Shown here: positions 10,458 to 15,139 of the stretch, piece after piece
Layout of the letters: every line of letters begins with the position of its first letter
Numbering within the stretch: the stretch's first letter is position 1
NCBI RefSeq assembly: GCF_003261635.1
Contig: NZ_QFXK01000035.1
Coordinates: 124,001 to 188,000 of the forward strand
Direction: 5' to 3'
Source of the DNA: Kribbella monticola
GTDB lineage: Bacteria > Actinomycetota > Actinomycetes > Propionibacteriales > Kribbellaceae
DNA: 64,000 bases
Notes under the pieces: model-generated
What the model was told of the DNA's origin: nothing
Database searches by the model: none
What the model saw: the letters and a program-made list of their open reading frames with translations, nothing else
Translations under genes and position numbers: made by a program

Positions 10458-11276
10458 GTGAGCGCAGCTGGAGTGAATGCCGAACCGTCCCGCGGCCGGG
10501 GCGGTCAGCTCGCTGCCCAGCGGCAGGCCACGATCGTTGCCGAGGTCAACAGCCGCGGCGCGATCACCGTCGCCGAACTGGTCGAGCGGTTCGGGGTGTC
10601 GGACATGACGATCCGCCGCGACCTGGACGCGCTCGACTCCAGCGGCCTGCTGCACAAGGTGCACGGAGGTGCCACCTCGGTCGGCCTGCGCAGCGCGCAT
10701 GAGCCCGGGTTCGACGCCAAGCTCACGCAGGAATCCGCCGCCAAGCAGGCGATCGCCGCCGAGGCCGCCCGCCGGGTGCAACCGGACAGTGCGATCGGCA
10801 TCGGCGCCGGTACGACGACGTACGCGCTGGCCCGCCAGTTGCTCCGGGTCGAGAACCTCACCGTGGTGACGAATTCGGCCCGGATCGCCGACGTGTTCCA
10901 CGGCAACGGCCGGTCGGACCGCACCGTCGTCCTGATCGGCGGCATCCGGACGCCGTCGGACGCGCTGGTCGGCCCGATCGCGACCGCCGCGCTGCAGTCG
11001 CTGCACCTCGACCTGCTCTTCCTCGGTGCACACGGCGTCGATGCCGAGCACGGCCTGAGCACGCCGAACCTGATGGAGGCCGAGACCAACCGGTCCTTCA
11101 TCGCCGCGAGCCGCGAGGTGGTCGTCGTCGCCGACCACACCAAGTGGGGCACGGTCGGCCTCAGCACGTTCGCCGGCTGGGGCGACCTCGACCTCGTCGT
11201 CACCGACTCCGGCCTCTCCACCGCCGCCCGCAAAGCCATGCGCGACACCAACTGCGAACTGATCATCGCCTCCTGA
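10458..11276 (+). CDS. DeoR/GlpR-family sugar-responsive regulator
   Basis: A 272-residue repressor-type protein. Residues about 12-68 form the DeoR winged helix (RQATIVAEVNSRGAITVAEL... FGVSDMTIRRDLDALD), followed by the short HGGA linker and a C-terminal DeoRC sugar-phosphate sensor domain (GIGAGTTTYALARQL, LGAHGVDAEHGLSTPN, ADHTKWG), all standard for GlpR/FruR/AgaR relatives. Ligands are usually phosphorylated sugars. It is convergent with galTK, separated by the palindrome array, so control of galactose genes is plausible but not proven. The start at GTG 10458 follows the leaderless -10 box; GTG 10452 is the alternative. Confidence 0.92.
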   Translation: MSAAGVNAEPSRGRGGQLAAQRQATIVAEVNSRGAITVAELVERFGVSDMTIRRDLDALDSSGLLHKVHGGATSVGLRSAHEPGFDAKLTQESAAKQAIAAEAARRVQPDSAIGIGAGTTTYALARQLLRVENLTVVTNSARIADVFHGNGRSDRTVVLIGGIRTPSDALVGPIATAALQSLHLDLLFLGAHGVDAEHGLSTPNLMEAETNRSFIAASREVVVVADHTKWGTVGLSTFAGWGDLDLVVTDSGLSTAARKAMRDTNCELIIAS

Positions 11277-11279
11277 CCA

Positions 11280-11493
11280 CCCACACTTTGAGGGGATGTC
11301 CCCCCAAAGTGTGGGCTGTCTGCCTGCATACTGCAGGGCAACCCGCCAGTTGGGGGGATATCCCCTCAAAGTGTGGGTGGTCAGGGTGGCTGCCGCGGCG
11401 TAACCCACCAGTTGAGGGGATGTCCCCTCAAAGTGTGGGTTGTCTGCCTGCATACTGCAGGGCAACCCGCCAGTTGGGGGGATATCCCCTCAG
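11280..11493. repeat. Four 20-bp palindromes at exact 62-bp spacing
   Basis: TTGAGGGGATGTCCCCTCAA-type palindromes occupy 11288-11307, 11350-11369, 11412-11431 and 11474-11493, each 62 bases apart. Copies 1 and 3 share one spacer almost identically (it holds a further TGCCTGCA/TGCAGGGCA inverted repeat), while copy 2 has a different spacer with the same ends. Flanks extend the symmetry: in copy 1 a 17-bp arm starting CCCACACTTTG pairs with its partner at 16 of 17 positions. The array lies between the convergent stops of the DeoR gene and galK and overlaps the galK stop. It may act as a multi-hairpin bidirectional terminator or as a protein-binding array. Confidence 0.85.
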
Positions 11494-12623
11494 AGGGGGA
11501 GGCGGGAGGCGCCGGGGGACGGGGTGGCGGCCAGGGAGGTGGGGGCGGTGAAGCCGTGGTCGGCGAAGGCCTTCTCGATCGCGGCGAGGGTGGCGTCGGC
11601 CGCGTCGGCTTCAACCAGCGCGATGATGCAGCCGCCGAAACCGCCGCCGGTCATCCGGGCGCCGAGCGCGCCCGCCGCCAACGCGGTGTCGACGGCGACA
11701 TCGAGTTCGGGCACGGTGATCTCGAAGTCGTCGCGCAACGACACATGCGATGCGGTGAACAGCGGACCGACATCGCGCAGCCGGCCGGCGTGCATCAGCT
11801 CGACCGCCTCCTCGACCCGGCGGATCTCGGTCACCACGTGCCGCACGCGACGGCGTACGACATCATCCGTCAACCGGGTAAGCGCATCGTCGAGCTCGTC
11901 GAAGGCAACCGAACGCAAAGCCGGTACGCCGAGCTCGGCCGCGGCCTGCTCGCAGCTCTTCCGCCGGGCGGCGTACTCGCCGTCGACGTGCCGATGCGGT
12001 GCCTTCACATCGACCACCAGCAAGGCGAGTCCGTCGGCCGCCGGGTCGAACGGGATCTGGTCGGTCGACATCGCGCGGATGTCGAAGTACAAGGCGTGTC
12101 CGGCGGTGCAGCACATCGACGCCATCTGGTCCATCAGACCGACCGGCGCACCGACGTACGAATTCTCGGCCTTCTGCGCGAGCCGGGCGACCTCGGCCGG
12201 ATCGACCTCGACGTCGCTCAATCCCAACAGGGCAACGGCTGTCGCGCACAACAGCGCTGCCGACGACGACAGGCCGGCCCCCGACGGGAGGTCGGAATCG
12301 ACCAGCAGGTTGGCCCCGCCGATCGGGTAACCGGCCTCACGCAGTACCCAGGCTGCTCCCGCCGGGTACGCCGCCCAGTCCTCGACGGACCCCGGTGCCA
12401 GGTCGGCCAGCGTGAACTCGATGACACCCGGCTGCCCCTTCGTCGCCACCGCGAACCGGCCGTCGGTGCGCGCGGAGGCGGTCACCACGATCTGGTTCGG
12501 CAGCGCGATCGGCATCACCAGGCCGTCGTTGTAGTCGGTGTGCTCGCCGATCAGGTTGACCCGGCCGGGCGCGCGCCAGGAGCCGTCGGGGGCGGTGTGG
12601 AAGATCTCCTCGAACGTGCTCAC
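11490..12623 (-). CDS. galK: Galactokinase
   Basis: A 377-residue GHMP-family kinase that phosphorylates alpha-D-galactose at C1 using ATP, the first Leloir step. All three GHMP signatures are present: GRVNLIGEHTDYNDG near the N-terminus (sugar binding), LPSGAGLSSSAAL (ATP phosphate loop) and MTGGGFGGC near residue 335; the catalytic Asp is in VGLMDQMASM. The GTG start at 12623 overlaps the galT stop by four bases (GTGA), so the two are translationally coupled. Its own stop lies inside the fourth palindrome of the adjacent repeat array. A longer open frame upstream is Arg/Pro-rich noise. Cytoplasmic. Confidence 0.96.
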   Translation of the reverse strand: MSTFEEIFHTAPDGSWRAPGRVNLIGEHTDYNDGLVMPIALPNQIVVTASARTDGRFAVATKGQPGVIEFTLADLAPGSVEDWAAYPAGAAWVLREAGYPIGGANLLVDSDLPSGAGLSSSAALLCATAVALLGLSDVEVDPAEVARLAQKAENSYVGAPVGLMDQMASMCCTAGHALYFDIRAMSTDQIPFDPAADGLALLVVDVKAPHRHVDGEYAARRKSCEQAAAELGVPALRSVAFDELDDALTRLTDDVVRRRVRHVVTEIRRVEEAVELMHAGRLRDVGPLFTASHVSLRDDFEITVPELDVAVDTALAAGALGARMTGGGFGGCIIALVEADAADATLAAIEKAFADHGFTAPTSLAATPSPGASRLPL

Positions 12624-13663
12624 GAACCAACCTTCCGCAGAGTCTCGGCGACGTCTTCCGGCCGGGTGTCGCTGATGAACGCGCCCATCCCGGACTCGGA
12701 ACCGGCAAGGTACTTGATCTTGTCCGCGGCCCGCCGGATCGACAACACCTCGAGGTGCAGGTAGCCGAGTTCGCGGTCGATGCGGACCGGCGCCTGGTGC
12801 CAGGCAGCGATGTAAGGCAGCGGATCGCCGTACAGGCCGTCGAGCCGGCGCAGTACGTCGAGGTAGAGCTGGGTGAAGTCGTCGCGCTCCGGGCCGGACA
12901 GCTCGGAGATGTCGGCGACCTGGCGGTGCGGGTACAGGTGCACCTCGACCGGCCAGCGGGCGGCCTCGGGGACGAAGGCGGTCCAGGTGCCGTTCTCGGC
13001 GATCACCCGGGTGCCCTGCTTGCGTTCGGTGGCGAGGATGTCGGCGAAGAGGTTGCTGCCGGCAACGGCCTGGTGTTCGCGCGCGCGGTCCAGCAGGGTG
13101 CGCATTCGCGGCGGCAGGAACGGGTAGGCGTAGATCTGGCCGTGCGGGTGGTTCAGCGTCACGCCGATCTCGCGGCCGCGGTTCTCGAACGGGAACACGT
13201 GCTCCACGTCCGGTCGCGCGCTCAGCTCGGCGGTCCGGTCGGCCCAGGTCTCGACGACGAGCCGGGCCTGGCCCTGGGAGAGGTTGGTGAAGGACTGGTC
13301 GTGGTCGCTGGTGAAGCAGACGACCTCGGCCCGGCCCGGACCGGCGAAGGACGGGAAGCGGTTCTCGAAGACGGCGACGTTGTAGTCGTGGTCGGGGATC
13401 TCGGTCGGGTTCCCCGGCTTGCTCGCGCACAGCGGGCACTGGTCCGCGGGCGGCAGGTAGGTCCGGGTGTTGCGGTGCGTCGCGTAGGTGATCGTGTCGC
13501 CGGTCAGCGGGTCGATCCGCAGGTCGACCTGCGGCTTCGGGGCCGGCAGTCCGCGGGTGTCCTCGAGCGGCACCCGGACGGCGGCGTCGGCGGGGTCGTA
13601 GTAGATCAGGTCCCGGCCGTCGGACAACTTGGTATCGGTCCGCCGCGCACCACGAATCGTCAT
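12620..13663 (-). CDS. galT: Galactose-1-phosphate uridylyltransferase
   Basis: A 347-residue HIT-superfamily enzyme that exchanges UMP between UDP-glucose and galactose-1-phosphate. The active-site HPH triad is in LNHPHGQIYAYPF (around residue 160), the middle residues carrying the uridylyl group; a zinc-binding CPLC pair is at about 73-76. Length matches the family. The ATG at 13663 sits six bases after TATGAT, a near-consensus -10 box, with no Shine-Dalgarno, so the galTK mRNA is probably leaderless. It is first in a two-gene operon with galK; no galE is present in the window. It is divergent from the CNNM/CorC-type gene. Confidence 0.95.
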   Translation of the reverse strand: MTIRGARRTDTKLSDGRDLIYYDPADAAVRVPLEDTRGLPAPKPQVDLRIDPLTGDTITYATHRNTRTYLPPADQCPLCASKPGNPTEIPDHDYNVAVFENRFPSFAGPGRAEVVCFTSDHDQSFTNLSQGQARLVVETWADRTAELSARPDVEHVFPFENRGREIGVTLNHPHGQIYAYPFLPPRMRTLLDRAREHQAVAGSNLFADILATERKQGTRVIAENGTWTAFVPEAARWPVEVHLYPHRQVADISELSGPERDDFTQLYLDVLRRLDGLYGDPLPYIAAWHQAPVRIDRELGYLHLEVLSIRRAADKIKYLAGSESGMGAFISDTRPEDVAETLRKVGS

Positions 13664-13669
13664 GGAGCG

Positions 13670-13675
13670 ATCATA
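13670..13675 (-). promoter_or_regulatory. -10 box of the leaderless galTK operon
   Basis: Minus-strand TATGAT, one base from the sigma-70 consensus TATAAT, lies exactly six bases before the galT ATG. No convincing -35 at standard spacing was seen, as is common in actinobacteria. Confidence 0.6.
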
Positions 13676-13716
13676 AACCAACAGATTCAAACATGCATCA
13701 AAGGACCTCCCGCCGC

Positions 13717-13722
13717 TACTCT
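13717..13722 (+). promoter_or_regulatory. -10 box before the CNNM/CorC leader ORF
   Basis: TACTCT lies exactly six bases before an ATG at 13729 that opens a 17-codon ORF rather than the main gene. By the same spacing rule that fits many genes here, the RNA would start on this ATG and have a 67-nt leader before the CNNM gene. Confidence 0.45.
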
Positions 13723-13728
13723 TGATCG

Positions 13729-13782
13729 ATGGACGTCGCCCTACTTCCGCGTCCCCTCCTGTTCTGCCGGAGAGGACGCTAG
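13729..13782 (+). CDS. Putative leader peptide upstream of CNNM/CorC gene
   Basis: A 17-codon ORF, MDVALLPRPLLFCRRGR, beginning at the predicted RNA 5' end. It is rich in Leu, Pro and Arg; Pro-rich leaders of bacterial magnesium transport genes regulate by stalling or slippage, which makes this composition suggestive. A strong stem (11-bp arms at 13749-13759 and 13769-13779, ten of eleven paired, nine-base loop) lies inside the ORF. The stop TAG at 13780-13782 overlaps the AGGAA Shine-Dalgarno (13781-13785) of the main ATG at 13796. Translation of the peptide would therefore melt the stem and deliver ribosomes to the main start. Too short to prove by composition. Confidence 0.4.
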   Translation: MDVALLPRPLLFCRRGR

Positions 13783-13795
13783 GAACTCCCAGCCC

Positions 13796-15139
13796 ATGAA
13801 AGAAACCCTGACCAACATCGTCCTGATCTTCGTCTTCGTGCTGATCGGCGGCGTCTTCGCGGCCGCCGAGATGGCCCTGGTCTCGCTGCGCGAGAGCCAG
13901 CTCAAGTCGATCGCACACCGCGGCAAGCGCGGCGAGACGGTGGCCCGGGTGGCCGCCAACCCGAACCGCTTCCTGTCCGCCGTGCAGATCGGCGTCACCC
14001 TGATGGGCTTCCTGTCGGCCGCCTTCGGTGGCGCGACCCTGGCCGACGGGTTGTCCCCGCACCTGCAGAACCTCGGCCTGCCGGAGTCGCTGGCCGACAC
14101 GGTCGCGCTGATCCTGATCACGATCGCGATCTCGTACGTGTCGATCGTCCTCGGCGAGCTGGCGGCGAAGCGGCTCGCGCTGCAACGGGCGGAGACCTTC
14201 GCCCTCGGGCTGGCGCCGCTGGTGGACCGGATCGCCTCGGCCGCCCGGCCGGTGATCTGGCTGCTGTCGAAGTCGACCGACCTGGTCGTCCGGGCGCTCG
14301 GTGGTGACCCGAACGCCAACCGCGAGGTGATGTCCGACGAGGAGCTGCGCGACCTGGTCTCCGCGCACGAGTCGCTCGGCGAGGAGGAACGCCGGATCGT
14401 CGACGACGTCTTCGAGGCGGGTGGCCGGCAACTGCGCGAGCTGATGCTGCCGCGGACCGAGGTGGACTTCGTCGACGCGGAGATGCCGGCGTACAAGGCG
14501 GTCAAGTTCGCGGCCGAACGGCCGCACTCGCGGTACCCGGTGATGAACGGGTCGGCCGACGACATCGTCGGGTTCGTGCACGTCCGCGACCTGTTCGACC
14601 CCGCGGTCGCGACCCGCTCGGTGCGGGTCGGCGACCTGGCGCGCGACGTCCTGATGCTGCCCGACACCGCGAAGCTGCTGCCGACACTGACCGAGATGCG
14701 CCGCCGCAGTACCCATCTCGCGATCGTGCTGGACGAGTACGGCGGTACGGCGGGCATCGTCACGATGGAGGACCTGGTCGAGGAGCTGATCGGCGACATC
14801 AAGGACGAGTACGACGAGGACTCGACCGAGACGACCCGGCTGCGCAGCGGCGACATCGAGGTCGACGGCCTGCTCAACCTGGACGACTTCGCCGAGGAGA
14901 CCGGGGTGGAACTGCCCGACGGCCCGTACGAGACGGTTGCCGGCTTCCTCGCCGCCCAGCTCGGCAAGGTGCCGGCGGTCGGCGAGGAGGGCGCGGTCGA
15001 CGGCTACAAAATCACCGTCACCGAGATGGACGGCCGCCGCGTCGCCCGGGTCCGGGTCCACCGCGTCGCGCCGGCCGAGGAGACCGCCGACGCGATGGCC
15101 GGCGATCCGGCTGATGCGAAGGCACCGCCTGCCGAGTGA
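13796..15139 (+). CDS. CNNM/CorC-family (HlyC/CorC) CBS-domain membrane protein
   Basis: A 447-residue integral membrane protein. Residues 1-190 form the CNNM (DUF21) domain with about four membrane helices; the first opens with IFVFVLIGGVFAAAEMALVSL and a later one has LILITIAISYVSIVLGELAAKR. A pair of CBS domains follows (about 215-335; MLPRTEVDFVDAEM, RYPVMNGSADDIVGFVHVRD, LAIVLDEYGGTAGIVTMEDL), then the C-terminal CorC_HlyC domain. Relatives export or sense magnesium and cobalt, with nucleotide bound at the CBS pair. The ATG at 13796 has AGGAA ten bases upstream. The upstream leader ORF and hairpin suggest translational control. Its stop is one base from the convergent MFS gene stop. Confidence 0.92.
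   Translation: MKETLTNIVLIFVFVLIGGVFAAAEMALVSLRESQLKSIAHRGKRGETVARVAANPNRFLSAVQIGVTLMGFLSAAFGGATLADGLSPHLQNLGLPESLADTVALILITIAISYVSIVLGELAAKRLALQRAETFALGLAPLVDRIASAARPVIWLLSKSTDLVVRALGGDPNANREVMSDEELRDLVSAHESLGEEERRIVDDVFEAGGRQLRELMLPRTEVDFVDAEMPAYKAVKFAAERPHSRYPVMNGSADDIVGFVHVRDLFDPAVATRSVRVGDLARDVLMLPDTAKLLPTLTEMRRRSTHLAIVLDEYGGTAGIVTMEDLVEELIGDIKDEYDEDSTETTRLRSGDIEVDGLLNLDDFAEETGVELPDGPYETVAGFLAAQLGKVPAVGEEGAVDGYKITVTEMDGRRVARVRVHRVAPAEETADAMAGDPADAKAPPAE

Follow-up and report, generated by a model that had tools for sequence, protein, structure and literature searches.

In the 64-kb stretch of DNA analysed here (the window), a gene of the CNNM/CorC type is preceded by a short open reading frame that begins six bases downstream of a −10 element and contains a stem. 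The features, all on the forward strand, are as follows.

13717..13722, + strand: −10 element TACTCT (TANNNT class), six bases 5' of the leader ATG
13729..13782, + strand: leader ORF (uORF) MDVALLPRPLLFCRRGR with its stop, presumed leaderless, 17 codons, TAG at 13780-13782
13749..13759, + strand: 5' arm of the stem (GCGTCCCCTCC), pairing with the 3' arm
13769..13779, + strand: 3' arm of the stem (GGAGAGGACGC), adjoining the uORF stop, 10/11 paired
13780..13785, + strand: TAGGAA, the uORF TAG overlapping the Shine-Dalgarno (SD) sequence AGGAA (13781-13785), as read from the sequence
13796..15139, + strand: CNNM/CorC-type gene, 447 aa, with CNNM, CBS and CorC_HlyC domains (Pfam)

The preliminary description had reported TACTCT six bases before the ATG of a leader ORF, an 11-bp stem with 10 of 11 positions paired and its 3' edge touching the TAG, and an overlap of this TAG with the AGGAA of a downstream CNNM/CorC gene. 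Positions, stem and overlap were all confirmed, and the Pfam domains bear out the type of the gene. The stem has one C·A mismatch and a 9-base loop, and 13 bases lie between the uORF TAG and the CNNM ATG at 13796. The combination TANNNT-N6-ATGGAC occurs once in the window, where 0.08 occurrences are expected. A σ70 consensus scan that also required a −35 box gave no promoter in 13600-13850, and the same region contains no terminator-like site (a stem followed by a T run). No Rfam match was obtained for 13400-14100 up to an E value of 1, and a terminator or a known RNA family at the locus was therefore rejected. The closest named loci of the CNNM gene (at least 85% identity) all belong to Kribbella except one filed as Streptomyces sp.

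Within Kribbella, promoter-to-ATG spacing, open frame, stop position and stem are all conserved. After duplicates were collapsed, the sample comprised 38 distinct upstream regions, and 37 of them contain TANNNT, exactly six bases, an ATG and an open uORF; it is mainly because of this conservation that we do not regard the window arrangement as a product of chance. The exception (L028, whose upstream region is identical to that of K. steppae, L033) lacks the arrangement. Thirty-six of the 37 leaders have 16-18 codons and a TAG 12-13 bases 5' of the CNNM start, while in the remaining one (L020) a loop insertion and loss of the TAG, as judged by eye, let the frame end at an ATGA overlap with the CNNM start. 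The preliminary description had named a frame broken by indels in close relatives as evidence against the leader; 1 of the 38 regions lacks the arrangement, and all 37 leaders that were found have lengths (51, 54, 57 or 93 nt) that are multiples of three. The spacer and loop of the stem vary in length (20+9, 21+8, 18+11, 20+6, 24+8 and 23+9 bases) and the frame nevertheless stays open, indicating that one-base changes have been balanced. Spacers of 20 and 21 bases distinguish the two main Kribbella clades, so that the 5' arm of the stem differs by one base in its position relative to the reading frame. An AGGA lies 5' of the CNNM start in 37 of the 38 regions.

In the Kribbella alignment, from which L020 and L028 were omitted, many leader residues are replaced between species, and the peptide is poorly kept except for Met-Asp at its beginning and the stem-encoded Arg-Gly-Arg/Leu at its end. 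The stem shows compensatory changes at two of its 11 pairs, namely pair 4 from the TAG (T-A, C-G and T-G) and pair 11 (C-G versus G-C); this outermost pair is formed in 13 of 37 rows of the stem table and unpaired in the other 24. L020 was also left out of this table, where L028 is a poor fit. The leaders of the genus fold more stably than their shuffled counterparts, with a mean z of −2.92 and 36 of 37 values below −1. The SD sequence lies outside the conserved stem. In fold predictions made without a shuffle control, 35 of 36 leaders have its GG mostly base-paired (probability of being unpaired no higher than 0.33), with partners that differ between leaders. In a few folds, the ATGGAC segment was seen by eye to pair with an AGTCC further downstream.

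We then looked at the same position in other actinobacteria. The genome search covered 255 genomes of the order, 207 of which had a match, and 296 genomes of the class, 162 of which had a match. Upstream regions were read for 80 of the 169 non-Kribbella matches in the order and for 60 of the 162 in the class, largely the best-scoring ones, so the fractions given below hold for close relatives of the window CNNM gene. Together with named loci, and minus duplicates and unusable rows, these gave 141 distinct non-Kribbella regions; excluded beforehand were L167 (start not found), L229 (masked) and L116, L119 and L218 (duplicates of named loci), and 16 distant ones of the 43 named loci, with no N-terminal tblastn match at 1e-8, were left unscanned. 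A coupled uORF was defined as TANNNT, 5-9 bases, ATG or GTG and at least five codons, with its end at −20 to +10 of the CNNM start.

Such a coupled leaderless uORF was found in 74 of the 141 regions, compared with a mean of 2.6 in shuffled sequences (at most 7 in any of 200 sets). In a further 28 regions (2.2 expected from shuffles) the CNNM gene itself lies at the leaderless distance, and the remaining 39 have neither arrangement. The uORF occurs in 15 of the 26 families and 39 of the 71 genera sampled, Kribbella and the named loci uncounted, and is absent from the other 11 families. When the stop was left unconstrained (spacing 6-8, at least five codons), 64 of 70 uORFs ended at 0 to +10 and four at −20 to −1; the remaining two ended outside this range, one on either side. 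Stop and CNNM start overlap, the uORF ending at +1 to +8, in 66 of all 141 regions, or 66 of the 74 with a uORF. In control stretches such a uORF precedes 7 of 480 gene calls, made in 800 kb by a crude gene finder, and an earlier run on overlapping stretches gave 4 of 267. An SD-like 4-mer precedes the coupled CNNM start in 20 of the 74 regions and was not seen in 54, and in these 54 the CNNM gene would therefore depend on coupling. The stem does not share this distribution. Fold strength outside Kribbella has a mean z of only −0.47, a value helped by a 13-base outlier (L189), with 20 of 74 leaders below −1 and 13 above +1. Some lineages do have strong stems (L170-L173 and L216-L221 among them), and the stem as a general feature was rejected; it is clear only in Kribbella and some other lineages.

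Three groups of loci showed features of their own. In the window's own genome, the first gene of a tandem CNNM pair (L276, 1465-1479) has TAAGGT, six bases and an ATG, and is thus directly leaderless without a uORF. L247 and L248, both of family f20, have no uORF; upstream of CNNM both carry a palindrome resembling CAGCATATGCTG and a block resembling TTTATTTATGTAAG, perhaps an operator as judged by eye. L235, L239, L242 and L251 carry leaders of the types MDDPCSS, MTDGCST and MDDVPDRP without TANNNT at the leaderless distance; by eye, their sequences resemble the leaderless leaders of other families.

The preliminary description had also drawn an analogy with the Pro-rich leader peptides of enterobacterial magnesium genes (mgtL, mgtP), which raises the idea of a sensor made of Pro and Arg codons. 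The alignment across relatives upheld one part of the expectation, in that ATG, open frame, stem and stop are conserved, and left the codon sensor unsupported. Pro and Arg make up fractions of 0.125 and 0.251 of the Kribbella leaders (n = 36; PP in 17), and in the window leader these codons lie within or overlap the stem arms, one of which is a base out of step between the clades, and many leader residues are replaced between species. The 74 non-Kribbella leaders have poorly conserved peptides, with Pro at 0.119 and Arg at 0.145 against 0.127 and 0.161 in shuffled sequences, and PP in 4. A common Pro/Arg sensor motif was rejected on the grounds of this codon placement and of the lack of enrichment outside Kribbella, and the Pro-codon analogy with mgtL is weakly supported.

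Acidic residues near the leader start gave a different picture, in tests that were chosen post hoc with the peptides already seen. Asp or Glu occurs in residues 2-5 of 52 of the 74 non-Kribbella leaders, compared with 27 of 65 leaderless gene candidates from the control stretches, which are defined by motif only; for an acidic pair (within one residue) the counts are 26/74 versus 7/65, and for Asp/Glu-Pro 18/74 versus 7/65. The enrichment is modest, and after collapsing relatives (n = 40) it amounts to 25 leaders with Asp/Glu (p 0.045), 12 with the pair (p 0.018) and 11 with Asp/Glu-Pro (p 0.035). Examples are MDDP, MSDPDSP, VDDPDP and MDEG. In Kribbella, 24 of 36 leaders start with MDD or MDE, while the clade of the window (MDV..., 12 of 36) has Val at residue 3 and no early acidic pair; the window leader, MDVALLPRPL, contains one acidic residue and no EPDP-like combination of an early acidic pair with Pro. 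These acidic early residues are only suggestive as a sign of a Mg2+ response.

Two further patterns, the first of them recognized post hoc, concern codons rather than residues. An AGW-CC/AC codon pair is present in 26 of the 74 leaders, whereas codon-order shuffles have 8.7 on average and at most 18. The base motif NNT-AGN occurs in 28 of 74 leaders; dinucleotide shuffles give 6.6, but codon-order shuffles give 19.6 and reach 30. The TAG that it creates out of the uORF frame falls in the CNNM frame in 21 cases and in the third frame in 8, whereas TGA is distributed 41 versus 39, and codon usage may lie behind the phase of the NNT-AGN stops. An NNT-AGW-CC codon stretch (for instance CATAGACCC or TCTAGTCCG) was noticed inside uORFs of several families (L131, L195, L216, L222 and others). 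A Cys-containing variant (DGCHR/DPCST), also defined post hoc, is found in 13 of the 74 leaders.

We suggest that leaderless initiation followed by termination and reinitiation at CNNM is the best explanation of the locus, and we consider it likely. The promoter at 13717 would place the mRNA 5' end at the leader ATG or immediately beside it, judging from the −10 spacing, and 70S ribosomes would initiate there without a ribosome-binding site. Translation of the 17 codons would open the internal stem, the ribosomes would terminate at the TAG overlapping AGGAA, and part of them would reinitiate at the CNNM ATG 13 bases further on. The leader would thereby act as a ribosome-delivery cistron that couples a Mg2+-transporter gene to leaderless initiation, and the CNNM transporter would probably be translated by ribosomes that have just finished the mini-gene. 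It is from the sequence that we infer the RNA 5' end, the translation of the leader, the reinitiation and any regulation by conditions that alter leader translation. The CNNM starts of Kribbella have an SD sequence of their own, so that independent initiation is possible there.

Leaderless small ORFs coupled to the following gene have been described in mycobacteria, including a case in which the linkage is kept but not the peptide (Shell et al. 2015, PMC4633059). They are reported to resemble the present leaders in having an RTG at the RNA 5' end (here placed there by the −10 spacing only), a short ORF, a stop that coincides with the next start or closely precedes it, and a linkage that is kept more than the peptide. 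The window uORF, with its 17 codons and its end before the start of the next gene, falls within the leaderless-uORF definition given there (5-50 codons, end before the next gene's start), and it lacks an RTGA overlap of its stop with the downstream start, the two being 13 bases apart. From its sequence, it would thus belong to a class with an upstream stop, and 66 of the 74 relatives to an overlapping class. Unlike the coupled ORFs reported there, the Kribbella leaders have their stop 12-13 bases upstream, on the SD sequence, and contain a covarying stem; in addition, we traced conservation across 15 families upstream of a single gene family, with starts predicted from sequence. Ribosome delivery is the simplest account of these observations, and as this kind has been described in mycobacteria, we class the leader with the mycobacterial coupled leaderless small ORFs.

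Among the matches listed in searches of a largely open-access literature, none deals, by its title or abstract, with a leader ORF upstream of a CNNM gene in actinobacteria. Polycysteine leaderless attenuators were reportedly described by Canestrari et al. in 2020 (cited in PMC9094748). They are like the window leader in being leaderless leader ORFs before an actinobacterial gene; the window leader has neither a cysteine run nor a link to cysteine genes.

Two enterobacterial leaders are also relevant, since the CNNM/CorC family has been tied to Mg2+ efflux (PMC12421838). The MgtL leader of mgtA resembles the present leaders in that it is short, precedes a Mg2+ gene and has early acidic and Pro residues, as do many of the relatives; its EPDP motif is reported to cause ribosome drop-off at low Mg2+ (PMC11282234). 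However, MgtL is reported to act on a Rho-dependent terminator and to repress an importer, whereas the leader described here would favour a putative exporter by coupling, and the window leader has no acidic pair. YoaL of mgpA/yoaE overlaps the region before a CorC-domain gene and is reported to raise translation, in that changing its start codon to a stop lowers MgpA translation (PMC12421838). Unlike the window leader, YoaL is enterobacterial, precedes a protein of another architecture and is not known to be leaderless. According to the same source, high Mg2+ induces Salmonella corC and mgpA by a mechanism stated to be unclear, and a sequence that destabilises ribosomes is present at the CorC N-terminus.

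Ribosome delivery may also have arisen as a passive relic, a reading that we hold to be possible but short of probable. An ancestral CNNM gene would have been directly leaderless and without an SD sequence, the transcription start would have moved upstream, and expression would have been kept by a new 5' ATG that delivers ribosomes to the old start, with no sensing. The 28 of 141 regions that are directly leaderless speak for such an ancestry, as does the TAAGGT-N6-ATG of the first gene in the tandem pair of the same genome, and poorly conserved peptides are compatible with it because coupled linkage is reported to be able to persist without the peptide sequence (PMC4633059). Against it, the covarying Kribbella stem, the recurrent acidic N-terminus and the AGW-CC/AC codon pair (post hoc) suggest added constraints on the sequence. 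Another reading is a Mg2+-sensing leader that mirrors mgtL: ribosomes would drop off at early acidic (and Pro) residues at low Mg2+, leaving the exporter unmade, and would complete the leader at high Mg2+, so that CNNM is translated. The enrichment of these residues outside Kribbella and the MDD/MDE starts of 24 of 36 Kribbella leaders point this way, along with the reported EPDP drop-off of MgtL (PMC11282234) and the high-Mg2+ induction, CorC N-terminal sequence and YoaL effect reported in PMC12421838. The modest size and post hoc nature of the enrichment count against it, as do the missing acidic pair in the window leader and its clade (12/36) and the lack of Mg2+ data for an actinobacterial CNNM in the literature searched, and we consider this sensor unlikely.

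Two further readings fare worse. An attenuator, in which the pace of ribosomes across Pro/Arg codons determines terminator formation, could draw on the frequency of these codons in Kribbella (0.125 and 0.251, PP in 17/36); their location in or across the stem arms, the missing terminator-like site and Rfam match, and the 74 other leaders, in which Pro/Arg is not enriched and PP occurs in 4, make it very improbable. We likewise give hardly any weight to the stem as an RNA or DNA element that functions alone with the ORF incidental: the stem is strong in Kribbella, yet all 37 leaders are multiples of three, stops cluster at the CNNM start, and in many relatives the uORF is present with a fold no stronger than shuffles.

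Thus, translational coupling from a leaderless leader remains our preferred reading. Because a single leaderless mini-cistron has been retained in front of this gene family in 15 of the 26 actinobacterial families sampled, the system offers a good natural test of the purpose of coupled leaderless ORFs. From the nature of the gene family we hypothesize that the leader may be under Mg2+ control, and it would then be, in a different phylum, a specific and testable candidate for the mechanism behind an induction by high Mg2+ such as that reported for Salmonella corC/mgpA (PMC12421838). The broadest form of this idea, which we think quite doubtful, is an ancient Mg2+ thermostat of actinobacteria that operates via ribosome stability, in which an acid-rich leaderless mini-cistron is completed only at ample Mg2+ and its completion is the main route to translation of the CNNM exporter. 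If true, it would reverse the logic of mgtL, act on 70S leaderless initiation and be common to many families of the class.

In the neighbourhood of the leader, a divergent gene on the minus strand (galT-like by eye; window 13661-13675) also looks leaderless, with TATGAT, six bases and an ATG at 13663. Between its promoter and that of the leader lies a block that, by eye, is conserved in many Kribbella relatives. Further away, at 11272-11495 of the window, palindromic units (ACCCACACTTTGAGGGGATGTCCCC...) recur at a 62-base spacing between genes that by eye are DeoR-like and galK-like.
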